From the NCBI RefSeq assembly GCF_009754915.1, contig NZ_WPIK01000005.1, positions 1 to 64,000 of the forward strand: 64,000 nucleotides of DNA. The letters are read 5' to 3'. The notes under the pieces were generated by a model. That model made no database searches and was not told the origin of the DNA. It was given only the letters and a program-made list of their open reading frames with translations. Made by a program: the position numbers and the translations under genes. Below are positions 9,364 to 60,715 of the stretch, in pieces. This stretch comes from Mucilaginibacter arboris. Its GTDB lineage: Bacteria; Bacteroidota; Bacteroidia; Sphingobacteriales; Sphingobacteriaceae. Each line of letters begins with the position of its first letter. The first letter of the stretch is position 1.

Positions 9364-10023
9364 TTAATGAAGGGCCTGGATGAGGAAATGATTTAGCGGT
9401 TGAATTTTAGCAAGATATTTAACAACATTTTGTATGGCCATTTTATCCATTAGTTCTTCATTATTTAGGTGATGGATAGCAGCAAAACTTTTCAGCTTTA
9501 ATAAATTGAGATAAGGATGATCGGCTTCGTAACCTTTCGGGTTATTTTTTAACTGTTCCTGTTGATCGAATGCAGAAAAATCATCGATAAAAGAAGCATC
9601 ACTAATAATGGCATTTAAGGCGGCGCCATTGTAATCTATTTCCTGCCGGATAGCTTTTAAATGTTCGGGCGTTGGCATCCAATAACCGCCGCCGACAAAA
9701 GATTTATCTGGCTGGATATGCAAATAATACCCAAGTTCTGTATTTCCGCTTCCGGTTTTTATGTTGATGCCGAAATTACTTTTATAAGGCGTTTTATCTT
9801 TACTGAAACGAATATCGCGATAAATTCGCATCACACATTTTTTAGGATCGGTATCTGCATTTACCTGCGGATCTGTTTTTGCAAGTTGCCGGATGAGTTG
9901 TTTGGTAAAATCCAGTACGTTTTCACGTGCATCTTCATAAACTGCTTTATTTGCTGTAAACCAGTCGCGGTTATTATTTTCTGCTAAGCTTTTTAAAAAA
10001 TCAAACGTTTCAGCTTTAATCAT
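9364..10023 (-). CDS. DUF2461 family protein
   Basis: 219 residues from ATG at 10023 (a TTG five codons upstream is not preferred). Signature LAENNNRDWFTANKAVYE near the N-terminus and MRIYRDIRFSKDKTPYKSNFG around residue 70 identify DUF2461, a widespread cytoplasmic family of unknown function. No membrane segment is seen. Confidence 0.9.
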   Translation of the reverse strand: MIKAETFDFLKSLAENNNRDWFTANKAVYEDARENVLDFTKQLIRQLAKTDPQVNADTDPKKCVMRIYRDIRFSKDKTPYKSNFGINIKTGSGNTELGYYLHIQPDKSFVGGGYWMPTPEHLKAIRQEIDYNGAALNAIISDASFIDDFSAFDQQEQLKNNPKGYEADHPYLNLLKLKSFAAIHHLNNEELMDKMAIQNVVKYLAKIQPLNHFLIQALH

Positions 10024-33773: not shown

Positions 33774-35420
33774 ATGTTACCGAAAATAAATTTTACCGAA
33801 ACAGAAGCATTTCGCTATCTCTCCGATTACTTTCCAACCATGGCAGAACAACAGATGAAAGATTTGTTTGCTGCCGACCCAGACCGTTTTAAAAAATTCT
33901 CCATCACGTTTGAAGACATTTTGTTTGATTTCTCCAAAAACCGCATTGATGATAAAACGATGGCGCTTTTAACTCAATTGGCCAAAGAATGTAAGCTAAA
34001 GGAAGCAATCGAAGCAATGTTTTCGGGCGAGAAAATTAATGAAACTGAAGGCCGCGCCGTTTTGCATACTGCATTAAGAAACGTAAGCAATAAACCACTA
34101 ACTGTTGATGGTGAGAATATTACAGAAGAGGTAAACAAAGTTTTAAAGCAGATGGAAACTTTTTCTAACTCTGTTATTTCCGGCGAATGGAAAGGTTACA
34201 AGGGCGATGAAATTACAGATGTTGTAAATATTGGAATCGGCGGATCGGATTTAGGTCCGGTGATGGTTACCGAAGCTTTAAAATCCTACAAAACTCGTTT
34301 AAACCTGCACTTTGTTTCTAATGTTGACGGAACGCACATTGAAGAAACTTTAAAGACTTTAAATCCGGCAACAACGCTGTTTTTAGTGGCTTCCAAAACT
34401 TTTACCACACAGGAAACCATGACAAACGCGCACACTGCACGCGATTGGTTTATTAAAAGCGGTGGGAAAGATGAAGATGTTGCCAAGCATTTTGCGGCGC
34501 TATCAACCAATGCTAAAGCAGTGGAAGCTTTTGGCATCGATACTAAAAATATGTTTGTTTTTTGGGATTGGGTTGGCGGAAGATATTCTTTATGGAGTGC
34601 AATTGGTCTTTCTATCGCTTTAAGCATTGGTTTTGATAACTTTAAAGAACTGCTAACGGGCGCACATGCAGCGGATGAGCATTTCAGGACTACTGATTTC
34701 GAACAAAATATTTCTGTTATGTTAGGCGTTCTTGGTATTTGGTACAATAACTTTTTCGGATCAGAAACAGAAGCTATTCTACCTTACGATCAATACCTGC
34801 ACCGTTTTGCTGCTTATTTTCAGCAGGGCGATATGGAAAGCAACGGTAAACATGTGGACCGGAACGGTAATGAAGTGGATTACTCTACCGGGCCAATTAT
34901 CTGGGGCGAACCCGGCACAAACGGGCAACATGCTTTCTACCAGTTAATTCATCAAGGAACCAAATTAATTCCTTGCGATTTTATTGCGCCTGCACAAAGT
35001 CATAACCCAACTGGCGAGCATCATCCAATCTTGTTATCCAACTTCTTTGCACAAACCGAAGCGTTGATGAACGGCAAAACCGAAGAAGAAGTAACCGCAG
35101 AATTAAAAGCTTCCGGCAAAACCGCAGAAGAGATTGAAAAACTAGCGTCTTTTAAAGTTTTTGAGGGCAACCGGCCAACCAATTCTATTTTGCTTAAAAA
35201 GATCACGCCGCGCTCTTTAGGCAGCCTGATCGCTTTTTACGAACATAAAATATTTGTACAAGGCATTATCTGGAACATTTTCAGTTTCGACCAATGGGGC
35301 GTAGAATTAGGCAAACAATTAGCCGTAAAAATTCAGAAAGAATTAAAAGGTGATGAAACAGTTTCTGATCATGATTCTTCTACTAATGGTTTGATTAATC
35401 AGTATAAGGATTGGCGGTAA
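33774..35420 (+). CDS. pgi: Glucose-6-phosphate isomerase
   Basis: 548 residues, full length for the large bacterial PGI. It interconverts glucose-6-P and fructose-6-P. Sugar-isomerase domains with [18 protein letters not shown] (about 150), [28 protein letters not shown] (catalytic Glu/His region) and KQLAVKIQ near the end. It is followed by a motif-built terminator and precedes the ParD/ParE-like module. Confidence 0.97.
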
Positions 35421-35433
35421 AGAATTTAGGCGG

Positions 35434-35469
35434 TAAAAGAAGCATCTGTAAATTGCAGATGCTTCTTTA
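35434..35469 (+). terminator. pgi terminator made of two motif arms
   Basis: Left arm AAAGAAGCATCTG (35436-35448), 7-nt loop, right arm CAGATGCTTCTTT (35456-35468). The left arm carries the full motif with upstream TTTAGGCGG; the right arm is followed by AAATTTAT. Confidence 0.7.
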
Positions 35470-35504
35470 AATTTATAATTTTAACTTGATTAAAAGTTAC
35501 AATA

Positions 35505-40999: not shown

Positions 41000-42448
41000 A
41001 TGAGCCAACGAACAAAAATCAAGGCGCTTTTGCAAAGCGGGCAAACCGGATTTGAAACTACAGTAAAAGGCTGGGTGCGTACTTTCCGCAACAATCAGTT
41101 TATTGCTTTAAATGATGGCTCAACCAATAATAACCTGCAAATTGTTGTTGATTTTGAAAATACCGACCCGGCACTTTTAAAACGTTTGACAACCGGCGCA
41201 GCAATCAGCGTAACCGGACAAGTAGTTGCTTCGCTGGGAAAAGGACAAAAAGTAGAGGTAAAAGCAGCATCGATAGAAATCCTGGGCGATTCTGATCCGG
41301 AGAAATTTCCGCTTCAACCCAAAAAACACAGTCTGGAATTTCTGCGGGAAATTGCACATTTGCGTTTCCGTACCAATACTTTTGGCGCTGTTTTTAGGGT
41401 AAGGAATACGCTGGCTTTTGCCGTTCACCAGTTTTTTCAGGAACGCGGATTTGTTTACCTCAACACACCCATTATCACTGCTTCGGATGCGGAAGGTGCA
41501 GGCGAAACTTTCCACGTAACTAATTTCGATCTAAATAATATCCCCAAAACTGCTGAAGGAGAAGTTGATTACAAAGAAGATTTCTTCGGAAAAGCAACAA
41601 ATTTAACCGTTTCCGGCCAGCTGGAAGGCGAACTGGGCGCTATGGCTTTAAGCGATATTTATACTTTCGGGCCAACTTTTCGTGCTGAAAATTCTAATAC
41701 GACAAGACATTTAGCCGAGTTCTGGATGATCGAACCGGAAATGGCTTTTTATGATCTGGAAGATAATGCAAACCTGGCAGAAGAGTTGTTAAAATACGTG
41801 ATAAAAGAAGCATTGGAAAAAAATGCAGAAGACCTGGAATTTTTAGCACAGCGTTTGGCCGAAGAAGAAAAGCAGAAACCGCAGCAGGAACGCTCGGAAA
41901 TGACTTTGCTGGAAAAGCTGAAATTTTGTTTAGACAACGATTTTGAGCGCTTAACTTATACGGAAGCGATTGATATTTTGAAAAACTCTTCCCAAAATAA
42001 AAAGAAGAAATTTAATTATTTGATTGAAAGCTGGGGCGCAGATTTACAATCAGAGCACGAACGTTACCTGGTTGAAAAACACTTTAAAAAACCGGTGATC
42101 TTAACCGATTACCCGGCAGAAATTAAAGCTTTTTACATGCGCCAGAACGAGCCGGATGCTGAAGGAAGAAAAACAGTACGTGCAATGGATATTTTATTCC
42201 CGGGAATTGGCGAAATGGTTGGCGGCTCGCAACGTGAAGAACGTTTGGATAAACTGGAGCAGCGCATGGACGAAATGGGCATTCCAAAAGAAGAATTAGA
42301 TTGGTATTTGGATACACGCAGGTTTGGTACTTGTCCGCACGCCGGTTTTGGTTTAGGTTTTGAACGATTGGTTCAATTTGTTACTGGTATGGGAAATATT
42401 CGTGATGTAATTCCTTTCCCTCGTTTTCCAAAAAATGCGGAGTTTTAA
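41000..42448 (+). CDS. asnS: Asparaginyl-tRNA synthetase
   Basis: 482 residues. OB-fold anticodon domain (about 15-120: [19 protein letters not shown]), then the class II core: [24 protein letters not shown] (motif 2), and [27 protein letters not shown] (motif 3). Charges tRNA-Asn with Asn. A roughly 75-residue insert rich in Glu/Lys ([21 protein letters not shown]) is typical of the Bacteroidota/Firmicutes form. The motif match at 41802 encodes Ile-Lys-Glu-Ala and is likely chance. Confidence 0.97.
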
Positions 42449-42497: not shown

Positions 42498-43022
42498 ATG
42501 AACCCAGAAATCACCATCCAAAAAGTACAACCAGAAGAAGCGGCACAATTCGCAAAGTTTAGTGCTGATCTGTTTTCTGAAACTTTTGCGGAGTTCAACG
42601 ATCCGAAGGATATGGAAAATTATCTTGCCGAGGCTTTCAACATAAATAAAATCGAGGAGGAATTAACTAACCCGCACACATACTGTTTTTATGCCAGTAA
42701 AAACAGTATGCCTATTGGCGGTATCAAATTCATTGTTGATACTGCCGATGCTTCTTTTACCGGTATAAAATCAGCAGAAATTTCAAGACTGTATGTTGCA
42801 AAAGCTTATCATAACCAAAAAATTGGTGCAATGTTAATGCAGTATGCAATTGATTGGGCTTTGCAAAATAAGACTGAAAAATTATGGCTGGGCGTTTGGG
42901 AAAAGAACCAGAAAGCAATTGATTTTTATCTGCAATGGGGATTTACAAAAACAGGAATTGTGGATTTTAAACTTGGAAATGATTTGCAGCAAGATTGGCT
43001 GATGGAAAAACAGTTGCGCTAA
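42498..43022 (+). CDS. GNAT-family N-acetyltransferase
   Basis: 174 residues. Acetyl-CoA site RLYVAKAYHNQKIGAMLMQYAIDWAL (Q/R-x-x-G-x-A/G at about 105-112) and the WLGVWEKNQKAIDFYLQWGF strand typical of GNAT. Substrate unknown. The coding sequence contains an ACAG-form palindrome (42680-42709) and a GAAG motif (42748-42759) within 80 bp, in frames unrelated to Lys-Glu-Ala. Confidence 0.88.
   Translation: MNPEITIQKVQPEEAAQFAKFSADLFSETFAEFNDPKDMENYLAEAFNINKIEEELTNPHTYCFYASKNSMPIGGIKFIVDTADASFTGIKSAEISRLYVAKAYHNQKIGAMLMQYAIDWALQNKTEKLWLGVWEKNQKAIDFYLQWGFTKTGIVDFKLGNDLQQDWLMEKQLR
42680..42763. repeat. Motif palindrome and single copy inside the GNAT gene
   Basis: ATACTGTTTTTA (42680-42691) and TAAAAACAGTAT (42698-42709) are exact inverted arms with a 6-nt centre. 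ATGCTTCTTTTACCGG (42748-42763) follows 38 bp later. Confidence 0.7.
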
Positions 43023-46690: not shown

Positions 46691-47162
46691 CGGTGGTATC
46701 CAGTTTTGAGGGATTGATTTTCTCTGAAACAAGAAACAATGTTGGGAACTGCGGACGTAAATCGCGCATTAGTTTTTGTGCTTCCAGCCTTGTCCGGAAA
46801 TCTCCTGCCTTGATCTTATAATTTGGTTCCTGGTAAATAATGTAAGTCCTTAAATCAGGATGCATTTGGTTAAACTCGGCTTGTTTAGCGTAAATTTCCT
46901 TACGGTCTGAGCTGATAAAAAACTGAACGCGATAACCCCATCCGGAACCGCTTCCTATTTTTCCTGAGGCAGATTTATCCGTTAATAAACGATGTGCAAT
47001 TAAGGTATCAATCCTCGGGTCTTTAATTACTTCAACTTCACCACGGGTTTGTGCAAACGAAAAAGAAATACCTGTTAAAAAAAACACTGCTAAAAGAAGC
47101 ATCCGGGCTGGTAAACCTGTCCGGATGCTTCTTTTATTAACTAAATCTTGATAGATACTCAT
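46677..47162 (-). CDS. SPOR-like secreted protein
   Basis: 161 residues if started at ATG 47162, 141 if started at ATG 47102. Signal peptide MLLLAVFFLTGISFSFAQ; the longer start adds the basic n-region (Lys-Arg-Ser-Ile-Arg) that signal peptides need, so it is preferred. C-terminal SPOR-like domain GYRVQFFISSDRKEIYAKQAEFNQ...YKIKAGDFRTRLEAQKLMRDLR, binding peptidoglycan. The N-terminus is encoded by a motif hairpin (47091-47136). Confidence 0.75.
   Translation of the reverse strand: MSIYQDLVNKRSIRTGLPARMLLLAVFFLTGISFSFAQTRGEVEVIKDPRIDTLIAHRLLTDKSASGKIGSGSGWGYRVQFFISSDRKEIYAKQAEFNQMHPDLRTYIIYQEPNYKIKAGDFRTRLEAQKLMRDLRPQFPTLFLVSEKINPSKLDTTDDKN
47091..47136 (-). terminator. Motif hairpin, probable secA terminator, inside the SPOR gene start
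   Basis: TAAAAGAAGCATCCGG (47091-47106) and CCGGATGCTTCTTTTA (47121-47136), perfect 16-bp stem, 14-nt loop. On the minus strand the following bases are GCAGTGTTTTTTTT. It lies 48 bp after the secA stop. Confidence 0.75.
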
Positions 47163-50492: not shown

Positions 50493-50683
50493 GTTGTAAT
50501 CTCTAAGATAAAATACTCCGTTTGCAACAATTACGCCAACGGTAACCGAAGCCATAATGGCAGGTAAAAATACGGATTTCGATTGAAAAACCGTATTTAC
50601 TATAGAATAGCTTTAGAGAAAACAGAAAATACTTCTTTTGTTACTTATTATTGCAGGCCCTGTTTAACATTTATCCCAGGAAA

Positions 50684-50783
50684 ATCCTGATGCTTCTTTT
50701 ATCGCATCAAAATGGAAGTTTATCCGTTGCTGCCGTACAAAAGGCAATGGCGTTGCCAATTTTTAGGTGATAAAAGAAGCATC
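50684..50783 (+). repeat. Composite repeat unit 1
   Basis: Starts ATCCTGATGCTTCTTTTATC, ends GGTGATAAAAGAAGCATC. Inverted ends of about 14 bp frame a roughly 70-bp interior with CGCATCAAAATGG near the left end and CGTACAAAA in the middle. Confidence 0.7.
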
Positions 50784-50854
50784 GCCAATAAAATAAAGGG
50801 AACCAAGTTTAAACAGCTTCTTAAGGAAAAAGAACAATTGCTTTTTTCTTGTGC

Positions 50855-50917
50855 GTTCTTTTGCTTGATCAAAAGAACCAAAAATCAAGAATGCCGGATC
50901 GCCTCCGGGCGGCATTC
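50855..50917. repeat. REP-like GC-rich block with hairpins
   Basis: GTTCTTTTGCTTGATCAAAAGAAC-type near-palindrome (50855-50878), then GAATGCCG (50889-50896) pairing with CGGCATTC (50910-50917). G+C is well above the surroundings through to 50970. It looks like an intergenic repeat inserted between the two motif units. Confidence 0.55.
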
Positions 50918-50978
50918 AGCCCTGCGCGCCTGGGTGGCTACCTTTCTGGCGCCATACTGATTAGCGCCGTACGGATTG

Positions 50979-51071
50979 ATCCTGATGCTTCTTTTACCGC
51001 ATAAAAATGGGTGTTTGTCCTTGCTTTCGTACAAAAAGCCTTAAAGATTTTTAGGTGATAAAAGAAGCATA
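50979..51071 (+). repeat. Composite repeat unit 2
   Basis: Starts ATCCTGATGCTTCTTTTACC, ends GGTGATAAAAGAAGCATA. The interior matches unit 1 (CGCATAAAAATGG, GTTTGTCC, TTGCT, CGTACAAAA) with small differences. Confidence 0.7.
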
Positions 51072-51163: not shown

Positions 51164-51407
51164 ATGGAAAAGCTATCAGATTTTATTAGCGTTGACCCCA
51201 ATATCCAGTTTGGAAAACCAGTGTTTAAAGGAACGCGTGTACCTGTTCAAAGCTTATTTTGGCATTTGCAGGAAGGAATTTCTATTCATGATTTTTTGGG
51301 AAGATTTTTCAAGTGTGAGTTTTGAGCAGGCACAACGGGTAATTGCATGGGGCGCAAAACATTTTGAACTACCTGAAAGCGTTTTGGATGAAACTATTAT
51401 TGGATGA
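51164..51407 (+). pseudogene. DUF433 antitoxin-like gene broken by a +1 frameshift
   Basis: Reading from ATG 51164 gives MEKLSDFISVDPNIQFGKPV, GTRVPVQSLFWHLQEGISIHDFL, then a stop at 51323. One base more downstream the frame continues EDFSSVSFEQAQRVIAWGAKHFELPESVLDETIIG to the TGA at 51405. Joined, it is a normal 80-residue DUF433 protein. The extra base is probably in the T6G3 run at 51292-51300. It overlaps the toxin start by 20 bp. A sequencing error is possible. Confidence 0.75.
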
Positions 51408-51729
51408 AAACCTTCCCGTTAAGTTAAAATACCGCTTTATTGATCGTGGTTTTGATGTAAAAACCATTAAAGATATGCAGTGGCCGGGAAAGCAAAACGG
51501 TGAATTGCTGAAGCTAATACTTGAGCATAATTTTACTGCTTTAATTACGATTGATAATAACTTATCTTCTCAGCAAAACTTTAAGAATTATTCATTGAAA
51601 GTTGTTGTACTTATTGCACCTACTAACACTTATCCCAGAATCATGGATTTTTTTGATGCAATTGTCGATAAAATTCATGAAGATTTTACTGTTCCGCAAA
51701 GTGTTGTTCATCCAAAGTATAAATTGTAG
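51388..51729 (+). CDS. DUF5615 PIN-like toxin
   Basis: 113 residues from ATG at 51388 (MKLLLDENLPVKLKYRFIDRGFDVKTIKDMQWPGKQNGE). The LLDENLP start and later LITIDNNLSSQQNF, LIAPTN match DUF5615/Mut7-C-type PIN-like RNases that pair with DUF433. It is intact although its antitoxin gene is shifted, which would be harmful unless the shift is recoded or a sequencing fault. Overlap with DUF433 supports one operon. Confidence 0.85.
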   Translation: MKLLLDENLPVKLKYRFIDRGFDVKTIKDMQWPGKQNGELLKLILEHNFTALITIDNNLSSQQNFKNYSLKVVVLIAPTNTYPRIMDFFDAIVDKIHEDFTVPQSVVHPKYKL

Positions 51730-53466: not shown

Positions 53467-53518
53467 AGCTGATAAAAGAAGCATCAGGTTATTAAACCTG
53501 ATGCTTCTTTTATCAGCT
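53467..53518 (+). terminator. Perfect 24-bp motif hairpin between cupin and thioredoxin genes
   Basis: Arms 53467-53490 and 53495-53518 are exact reverse complements with a 4-nt loop (ATTA). Each arm holds the 12-bp word; a T-rich GTTTTTCTT follows on the plus strand. Confidence 0.85.
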
Positions 53519-57299: not shown

Positions 57300-58274
57300 A
57301 TGATTTTGGTAACAGGTGCAACAGGTTTTTTAGGTTCCGAATTATGCCGGCAACTATTTTTATCCGGTAAAAACAGCATTCGATGCACCAAACGTTCCAC
57401 TTCGGTTGTTCCGAAAATTTTGCTTCCTTTTCAAAAACAAATCGTTTGGGTTGAAGCAGATTTACTCGAAATTGATGCCCTAAACGAAGCATTAGAAGGC
57501 ATTACCGAAGTTTACCATTGTGCAGCGCTGGTTTCTTTTGATCCTTCCCTTAAAAAAAAGCTGATTAAAAACAATGTAGAAGGCACGGCAAACCTGGTTA
57601 ATTTATGTGTTGAAAAAGGCATCCGTTTACTGCATGTAAGTTCCATTGCTGCCGTTGGCGAAGGAAAACCCGGCGAACTCATCAACGAGAAACATCACCT
57701 GGAAGAATCGCCAAAAGATAACGCTTACGCGATGTCTAAATACGAAAGCGAAATGGAGGTTTGGCGCGGCATGGCCGAAGGCTTGAATGCCGCAATTGTT
57801 AACCCGTCATTAATTATTGGTAAAAATGCCGGTAAAGAAGGCACCGGTCAAATTTTTGAAACCGTAAGAAAAGGCTTAAAATTTTATACTTCCGGCAGTT
57901 GCGGTTTGGTGGATGTGGAAGACGTGGCCAAAACCATGATCCTACTGATGGAAAGCAAGATCAGCAATGAACGCTTCATTATCAATGCCGAAAACTGGAA
58001 CTACAAAACGCTTTTTGATGAAATTGCCGATCACTTCAACCTAAAACCACCTTCCCTAAAAGCTAAACCCTGGATGTTAGGTTTAGCCTGGCGCGCTTCA
58101 GCTTTAGGTACTTTTTTTACCGGTAAAAAAATCGGAGTCGATAAAGTTACCGCACAATCTGCCAGCCGCATACAGGATTACGATAATTGCAAGGTAAAAG
58201 AAGCATTGGGCTTTGAGTTTAAACCGGTAAAGCAATCGATAGCGGAAATTTGCGCAGTCCTTAAATCCAACTGA
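57300..58274 (+). CDS. NAD(P)-dependent epimerase/dehydratase (extended SDR)
   Basis: 324 residues from ATG at 57300. Rossmann start MILVTGATGFLGSE, active-site YAMSKYESE (Tyr-x3-Lys) with the Ser in HVSSIAAVG. Resembles dihydroflavonol-reductase-like SDRs. Substrate unknown. It contains an ACAG match (57368) and a GAAG match (58195); the second encodes Val-Lys-Glu-Ala and is likely chance. Confidence 0.88.
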   Translation: MILVTGATGFLGSELCRQLFLSGKNSIRCTKRSTSVVPKILLPFQKQIVWVEADLLEIDALNEALEGITEVYHCAALVSFDPSLKKKLIKNNVEGTANLVNLCVEKGIRLLHVSSIAAVGEGKPGELINEKHHLEESPKDNAYAMSKYESEMEVWRGMAEGLNAAIVNPSLIIGKNAGKEGTGQIFETVRKGLKFYTSGSCGLVDVEDVAKTMILLMESKISNERFIINAENWNYKTLFDEIADHFNLKPPSLKAKPWMLGLAWRASALGTFFTGKKIGVDKVTAQSASRIQDYDNCKVKEALGFEFKPVKQSIAEICAVLKSN

Positions 58275-60134: not shown

Positions 60135-60146
60135 TTAGGCTTTTTT

Positions 60147-60223
60147 GTCATGCCGAACTCGTTTCGGCATCCCATCAGACAGGTTTAAATACTTGAGAGA
60201 TCCTGAAACGAGTTCAGGATGAC
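60147..60223 (+). repeat. REP-like paired hairpins
   Basis: GTCATGCCGAACTCGTTTCGGCAT-type stem at 60147-60170 and ATCCTGAAACGAGTTCAGGATGAC-type stem at 60200-60223, 29 bp apart. It resembles the widely scattered TCATGCTGAA...TTCAGGATGAC intergenic repeats of Bacteroidota, and sits in a convergent gap. Confidence 0.65.
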
Positions 60224-60224
60224 A

Positions 60225-60239
60225 ATGCTTCTTTTATCG
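60225..60239 (-). repeat. Dispersed motif copy beside the REP-like repeat
   Basis: ATGCTTCTTTTATCG, 1 bp from the REP-like element and 6 bp from the UspA stop. Confidence 0.75.
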
Positions 60240-60244
60240 TATAA

Positions 60245-60715
60245 TTATTTGTCCTTTAACGGAACAATCATCACCGGAATTTCTGTATGACGTGTAACAT
60301 CTTCAGCTACACTTCCGGTAAAAAAACGATTAAAACCAGTTCGGCCGTGAGAGCCAACTACAATTAAATCTGCTTTAAATTTTGCCGCTGTATCTACTAA
60401 TACCGTTGCTGCATCGCCGGTTTCTAAAAACTGCGAAATATTATGCCCTTCGCCGTATTGCGCTACATAACGCTGCATTACGTTTTTGGCTGCTGCATCC
60501 TGTGCATTCATAATATCTACCGGCGGCATGTTGGTTAACATGTCAATTTCTCCGCCTACAATGCCCGTTGTTACTGGTGGAACAATCATTGGTTCTACAA
60601 CTTCAACCAAGCCTACTTCTGCATTTAAAAGTTTAGCCAATGCAAATCCGTAAGCAGCAGCTTTTTCTGACTGATAGCTGTCATCAATCCCGATTAATAT
60701 CTTTTTGAATTCCAT
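60245..60715 (-). CDS. Universal stress protein UspA family
   Basis: 156 residues from ATG at 60715; an upstream ATG at 60781 lies in the dispersed motif and would add 22 odd residues. UspA fold: ILIGIDDSYQSEKAAAYGFALAK at the start and ATP-binding GSHGRTGFNRFFTGSVAEDV (G-2x-G-9x-G-S) at the end. Single domain. Confidence 0.92.
   Translation of the reverse strand: MEFKKILIGIDDSYQSEKAAAYGFALAKLLNAEVGLVEVVEPMIVPPVTTGIVGGEIDMLTNMPPVDIMNAQDAAAKNVMQRYVAQYGEGHNISQFLETGDAATVLVDTAAKFKADLIVVGSHGRTGFNRFFTGSVAEDVTRHTEIPVMIVPLKDK

Follow-up and report, generated by a model that had tools for sequence, protein, structure and literature searches.

The 12-mer ATGCTTCTTTTA, which recurs throughout the genome of Mucilaginibacter arboris, forms, together with its close variants AT(G/A)CT(TC/GT)TTTTA, a following nC and an AT tract, what is probably a genus-specific DNA-uptake signal working as a functional analogue of the neisserial DUS and the pasteurellacean USS. 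The motif is abundant, has a defined structure, is restricted to a single genus and shows no strand bias, and its copies within genes originated by base substitution and are conserved as DNA. From this genome structure we infer the receptor, the uptake and the drive that such a signal entails; a similar footprint would be expected from sequence-specific chromosomal functions of another kind, if they had thousands of sites.

Searching the 4.16-Mb genome returned 1,947 exact copies of the 12-mer (about one per 2.1 kb) against one copy of the reversed control word, with 982 on the forward and 965 on the reverse strand. While such whole-genome counts come from searches, the remaining observations refer to DNA that was read as stretches, about 689 kb of this genome and 300 kb and 96 kb of the sister genomes G001 and G002, respectively. 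The 689 kb contained 355 copies, compared with 0.4-7.8 expected under Markov models of orders 1-5, an expectation that varies with the background model; the excess over the fifth-order model is about 45-fold. Orientation is balanced along the contigs in 50-kb windows. The layout obtained from 242 exact copies in 464 kb consists of ATGCTTCTTTTA, then nC (with the C at +13), a few loosely constrained positions and an AT tract at +18 to +24, resembling the Haemophilus USS, in which a core is likewise followed by an AT tract. Between genes this tract is rich in A, whereas within genes its letters are just A or T. The close variants are abundant and share this C and tract; in copies with a single mismatch, the mismatches fall very unevenly across the positions. 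Using simple longest-ORF gene calls, 59 of the 242 copies (24%) were placed within ORFs, in four combinations of frame and strand, and motif density amounted to 36.6 per 10 kb between genes versus 4.1 in core genes; density was slightly higher in core than in accessory genes, a difference that was not significant.

All three genomes of the genus are rich in the motif, with 1,118 copies in G001 and 2,114 in G002, while every other sampled genome of the family (248) and of the class holds 0-11. A scan of named genomes with the 24-nt long form returned, among the matches listed, the G001 and G002 assemblies only. No motif dialects came to light in about 34 other genera, each sampled over up to 20 kb, and one apparent hit (G347) was rejected as repeated gene segments. 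The long form had no exact counterpart among viral contigs, in a collection from which phages of this genus may be absent. Within the genus, the ratio of the GT dialect (ATACTGTTTTTA) to the main form is higher in G001 (L131-L145) than in the genome studied here, and some orthologous sites of the two genomes have switched between the TC and GT forms.

The window, by which we mean the whole 64,000-nucleotide stretch of DNA analysed (contig NZ_WPIK01000005.1, positions 1 to 64,000), contains several genic copies. Those in a class II tRNA synthetase gene (41802-41813, minus strand) and at 42748-42759 (plus strand) are identical in both sister genomes, the copy at 58195-58206 (minus strand) differs from both by one mismatch in an ungapped alignment, and another lies in a DUF2461 gene (9588-9599, minus strand). 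When 21 genic copies were aligned to G001, identity was 0.94 in the core and about 0.94 in the tract but about 0.72 in the flanks, and none of the 21 fell into an alignment gap. The core was identical to G001 in 12 of the 21, compared with 11% of random genic 12-mers and 16% of composition-matched 12-mers; at one genic site the motif had been lost through many changes. A larger set of 148 ungapped aligned sites (93 genic) carried an accepted variant in both species at 110, including switches of 2-4 letters. Proteins from as many as 11 other genera align ungapped at the motif codons of glmS, rlmI and panC, with 1-10 base differences within the 12-mer; the region around a fifth site, a variant motif in an oxyR-like gene, has some gaps. 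Given these ungapped alignments with sister species and outgroups and the conservation at the DNA level, the motif arose by substitution in existing genes and has been kept as DNA, and its copies change by substitution into other accepted variants rather than by insertion. As a side reading, the panC site (L156:2921-3757), where the motif imposes VKEAS in all three species on a stretch that is variable in other genera, is a DNA motif shaping a protein.

Two units upstream of secA carry the motif as inverted pairs. Unit 1 (50684-50783, plus strand), an inner inverted motif pair with its interior, has motif cores at 50690-50701 on the plus strand and, with the canonical tail TCACCTAAAAAT, at 50771-50782 on the minus strand; unit 2 (50979-51071, plus strand) has cores at 50985-50996 (plus) and 51059-51070 (minus), its inverted end terminating at 51070 and its right flank running to about 51105. 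The common starts, interior and ends described in the earlier note were borne out, in that 50684-50725 and 50979-51020 share 88% identity across 42 nt, the middles (50727-50745 and 51021-51039) share 84%, and 50759-50782 and 51047-51070 are completely identical (100%) across 24 nt. The inverted ends are also present, but instead of the proposed 14 bp or so they form arms of 24-25 nt that are 88% complementary. Allowing up to two mismatches, GATGCTTCTTTTA occurs 56 times in the window versus 3.6 expected and a maximum of 9 in 100 shuffles, and chance is excluded as the origin of this abundance. An interior found nowhere else had been set beforehand as the outcome that would speak for a simple local duplication. 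With unit 1 as query, however, the genome search gave about two dozen full-length matches of 72-84% identity, interior included, so that the interior recurs genome-wide. In the sampled DNA, plus/minus motif pairs cluster at 74-91 nucleotides start to start and minus/plus pairs do not.

The earlier note took these units for a small non-autonomous element, and they do belong to one, which is dispersed, but its boundaries lie further out than claimed. Matches in G002 to copy 1 begin near 50655-50660 and end near 50823-50838, and the aligned copies of this genome reveal outer inverted ends of the type AAGC/GGCC-n-GTTTAAATTT, roughly 20 nt in length, which in copy 1 (50655-50826, ends approximate) lie at about 50656-50676 and 50803-50823. 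Since the matches run outward to outer inverted ends, both units form the inner portion of an imperfectly palindromic element that is dispersed and measures about 155-170 bp, and the genome-wide motif is the inner inverted pair of this element, not its ends. A strict outer-end pattern found few pairs, which span 155-167 bp and all enclose an inverted motif pair. Copy 1 folds as a single long hairpin (z -3.5), and an Rfam search gave no match. The element shares with MITEs that it is short, dispersed, imperfectly palindromic and non-coding with outer inverted ends, and it has the dispersed copies with terminal inverted repeats by which MITEs are recognised; unlike them, it contains an inner inverted pair of a genome-wide motif, and a clean target duplication was not found. 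At the secA site, both units are missing from G002, which has there an unrelated 67-nt spacer that bears a motif copy of its own; other sites are diverged or partly deleted, with no clean empty site or target-site duplication among them. Within the best explanation, this MITE-like element would be one vehicle spreading motif copies in intergenic DNA.

A GC-rich block does separate the two units, as the earlier note had it (approximately 50842-50975), but the block is a dispersed repeat in its own right: G001 and G002 contain dozens of matches to it at 80-92%, and the sampled DNA of this genome holds two further copies. The block takes the place of the left flank of unit 2. Copies of this repeat (GCCGGATCGCCTCCGGGCGGCATTC...) in the sister genomes often occur as inverted neighbouring pairs. 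Some composite units (L066:9048-9165, L075:5355-5474, L160:7709-7828 and L074:17019-17147) hold a near-perfect palindrome, CACTAAAGACCTATAAGGTTTT-AAAACCTTATAGGTCTTTAGTG, in their interior, a repeat nested in a repeat.

Other origins and functions were weighed for the units and the motif. That one 95-bp unit was simply duplicated locally upstream of secA agrees with the adjacency of the two units and their likeness of about 80%, but is scarcely credible given that full-length relatives are dispersed in this genome, with others in a sister genome, and that some of them match unit 1 at 84%, compared with 80% for unit 2. An alternative in which the motif is a REP, the composite units are REPIN-like doublets moved by TnpA-REP (RAYT) and the single copies are solo REPs draws on the dispersed family of inverted pairs with fixed spacing and related interiors, and on two Y1 transposase genes in the genome, one of which is followed, about 100 bp past its 3' end, by a composite unit. 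The IS200-like type of these genes was seen in the two unit-rich genomes (this one, G000, and G002) and not in the unit-poor G001, a comparison of three genomes only. However, a quarter of the copies lie inside genes, where they occur in several frames, align without gaps to sister species and outgroups, and are conserved as DNA; copies are neither restricted to extragenic DNA nor spread by insertion, and the repeat ends outside the motif. Because genic copies were born by substitution and conserved between sister species, the proposal of the earlier note that single motif copies are solo ends is contradicted, and REP/RAYT transposition offers no explanation for them. Nor did its suggestion of a TnpA-REP/RAYT transposase recognising these ends find support, as the two Y1/RAYT-type genes do not track the motif: they are single-copy here, while many relatives that lack the motif also have such genes, one of them as many as 10, and linkage of RAYT to the motif was thus rejected as not specific. 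We consider this alternative quite improbable, although a Y1/RAYT-type enzyme may have a role in the spread of the 155-170-bp element. The IS200-like Y1 transposase gene (L161:9592-10216) is single-copy, with a composite unit just past its 3' end and variant motifs on its 5' side, motifs being present in most intergenic regions of this genome.

A transcription signal repeated between genes, either a terminator or a promoter element, would explain why three quarters of the copies are intergenic and why head-to-head pairs form strong hairpins ending in U-runs. The pair at 53473-53512, located between convergent genes, is a perfect 24-bp terminator-like hairpin (-39.8 kcal/mol, z -12.6); that at 47091-47136 forms a hairpin and adjoins the start of an SPOR-domain ORF, and a third, with one mismatch in its second copy, lies at 35434-35470 after a gene ending at 35420. 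Such close terminator-like hairpin pairs, however, hold only 14 of 554 sites, intergenic density is similar for divergent (30 in 10.8 kb), co-directional (91 in 30.7 kb) and convergent (49 in 12.6 kb) genes, and conserved genic copies occur in both orientations. We regard this explanation as highly improbable, and a promoter or terminator as the main role of the motif was rejected because the location does not fit. The main remaining rival is an intracellular genome-wide signal under selection, namely binding sites for an abundant protein that organises the chromosome, or a signal of the Chi or KOPS kind for recombination or segregation. Such a signal would be sequence-specific, dense and conserved as DNA between species, as the motif is, and the AT tract suggests bending. 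By contrast, the absence of strand bias is unlike Chi or KOPS (a strand-biased signal of that kind was rejected on this ground), a 12-nt core plus tract confined to one genus is atypical for conserved chromosome systems, and the intergenic excess is strong, about 37 per 10 kb versus 4 within core genes. We therefore hold an intracellular role to be unlikely.

A role in DNA uptake is proposed on the basis that the traits of the motif match those published for DNA-uptake sequences. Sequence-specific uptake has been established for two families of proteobacteria (PMC1626085, PMC1939737, PMC3630211), and its sequences lie within and between genes with an excess in non-coding DNA, have no orientation bias, form few inverted repeats and grow in number by point mutation (PMC1939737). 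The motif is likewise an over-represented word without orientation bias, genic and intergenic with a non-coding excess, and evolves by point mutation. DUS dialects are set apart by a few letters and may occur side by side, and terminator-like inverted pairs of DUS are found (PMC3630211). The motif resembles the DUS of Neisseriaceae (10-12 nt, with dialects and the ComP receptor) in its 12-nt core, its equal use of both strands, its genic and intergenic copies, its few-letter variants coexisting in one genome and its occasional inverted pairs as hairpins; it differs in being unrelated in sequence, in the AT tract after the core, in its occurrence in Bacteroidota and in a pilus platform gene not being detected. 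With the USS of Pasteurellaceae it shares a rigid core, an AT-rich tract loose in letters and origin by point mutation in existing sequence, whereas its core is of another sequence and length, it shows one AT tract instead of two, and most of its copies are intergenic; 65% of USS in H. influenzae are genic (PMC1939737). In the same phylum, transformation of Riemerella anatipestifer (Flavobacteriales) depends on ComEC, DprA, ComF, RecA and proteins of unknown function, with no pilus homologues (PMC8459023), and R. columbina prefers its own DNA, with only poly-A words listed as candidates and no specific motif (PMC7965970). Bacteroidota, ComEC and an apparent absence of pilus homologues are common to Riemerella and the present genus, but no specific motif was found in the former, and its DUF5689 surface protein family, needed for transformation, was not detected in the genomes of this genus.

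In the proposed pathway, a surface receptor of competent cells would bind the motif, such that DNA of close kin would be preferentially taken up, pass through ComEC and recombine into the chromosome. Alleles that carry or gain the motif would be favoured in uptake, and the motif would accumulate and be maintained wherever the sequence tolerates it because of this preference. ComEC is encoded in all three genomes of the genus but also in nearly all relatives and is therefore no distinguishing trait of the genus. Known DUS/USS receptors act within type IV pilus-type machinery, with a minor pilin binding the motif. Of this machinery, the platform family T2SSF (PilC family) was not found in the three genomes but was found in controls and in four other genera; hence, the motif is filed as putatively working like DUS and USS and is assigned to neither of these known systems. 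A report of an uptake motif in Bacteroidota was not found in open-access full texts. On balance, we lean towards regarding the motif as the first DNA-uptake signal in this phylum, in which genus-specific self-DNA recognition would have evolved independently of Neisseriaceae and Pasteurellaceae and would operate with no type IV pilus. Its two dialects, TC and GT, would coexist in proportions that differ from one sister species to another. If so, self-recognition by a repeated DNA word would be a recurrent outcome of natural competence, with an independent case in another phylum, and the apparent absence of the pilus platform would indicate a different uptake receptor. The system would provide a new test of whether such motifs accumulate through uptake drive or through selection for recombination with kin, and could serve as a model for the measured preference of R. 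columbina for its own DNA, for which no motif was identified.

Further features of the window were noted. Beside the units, at 51165-51729, lies a small gene pair, the second with a DUF5615 domain, which is likely toxin-antitoxin-like and is apparently absent between secA and purD in G001. The longest motif desert of contig C45 (10428-27040, 16.6 kb) was considered as a mobile island and rejected as such because it contains a dense respiratory operon with alternative complex III and cytochrome oxidase genes (NrfD, COX1, COX2, COX3, CtaA and Sco1). Another dispersed repeat of about 100 bp occupies 60141-60246 and forms tandem-like clusters in G001 (C1:370547-371705).
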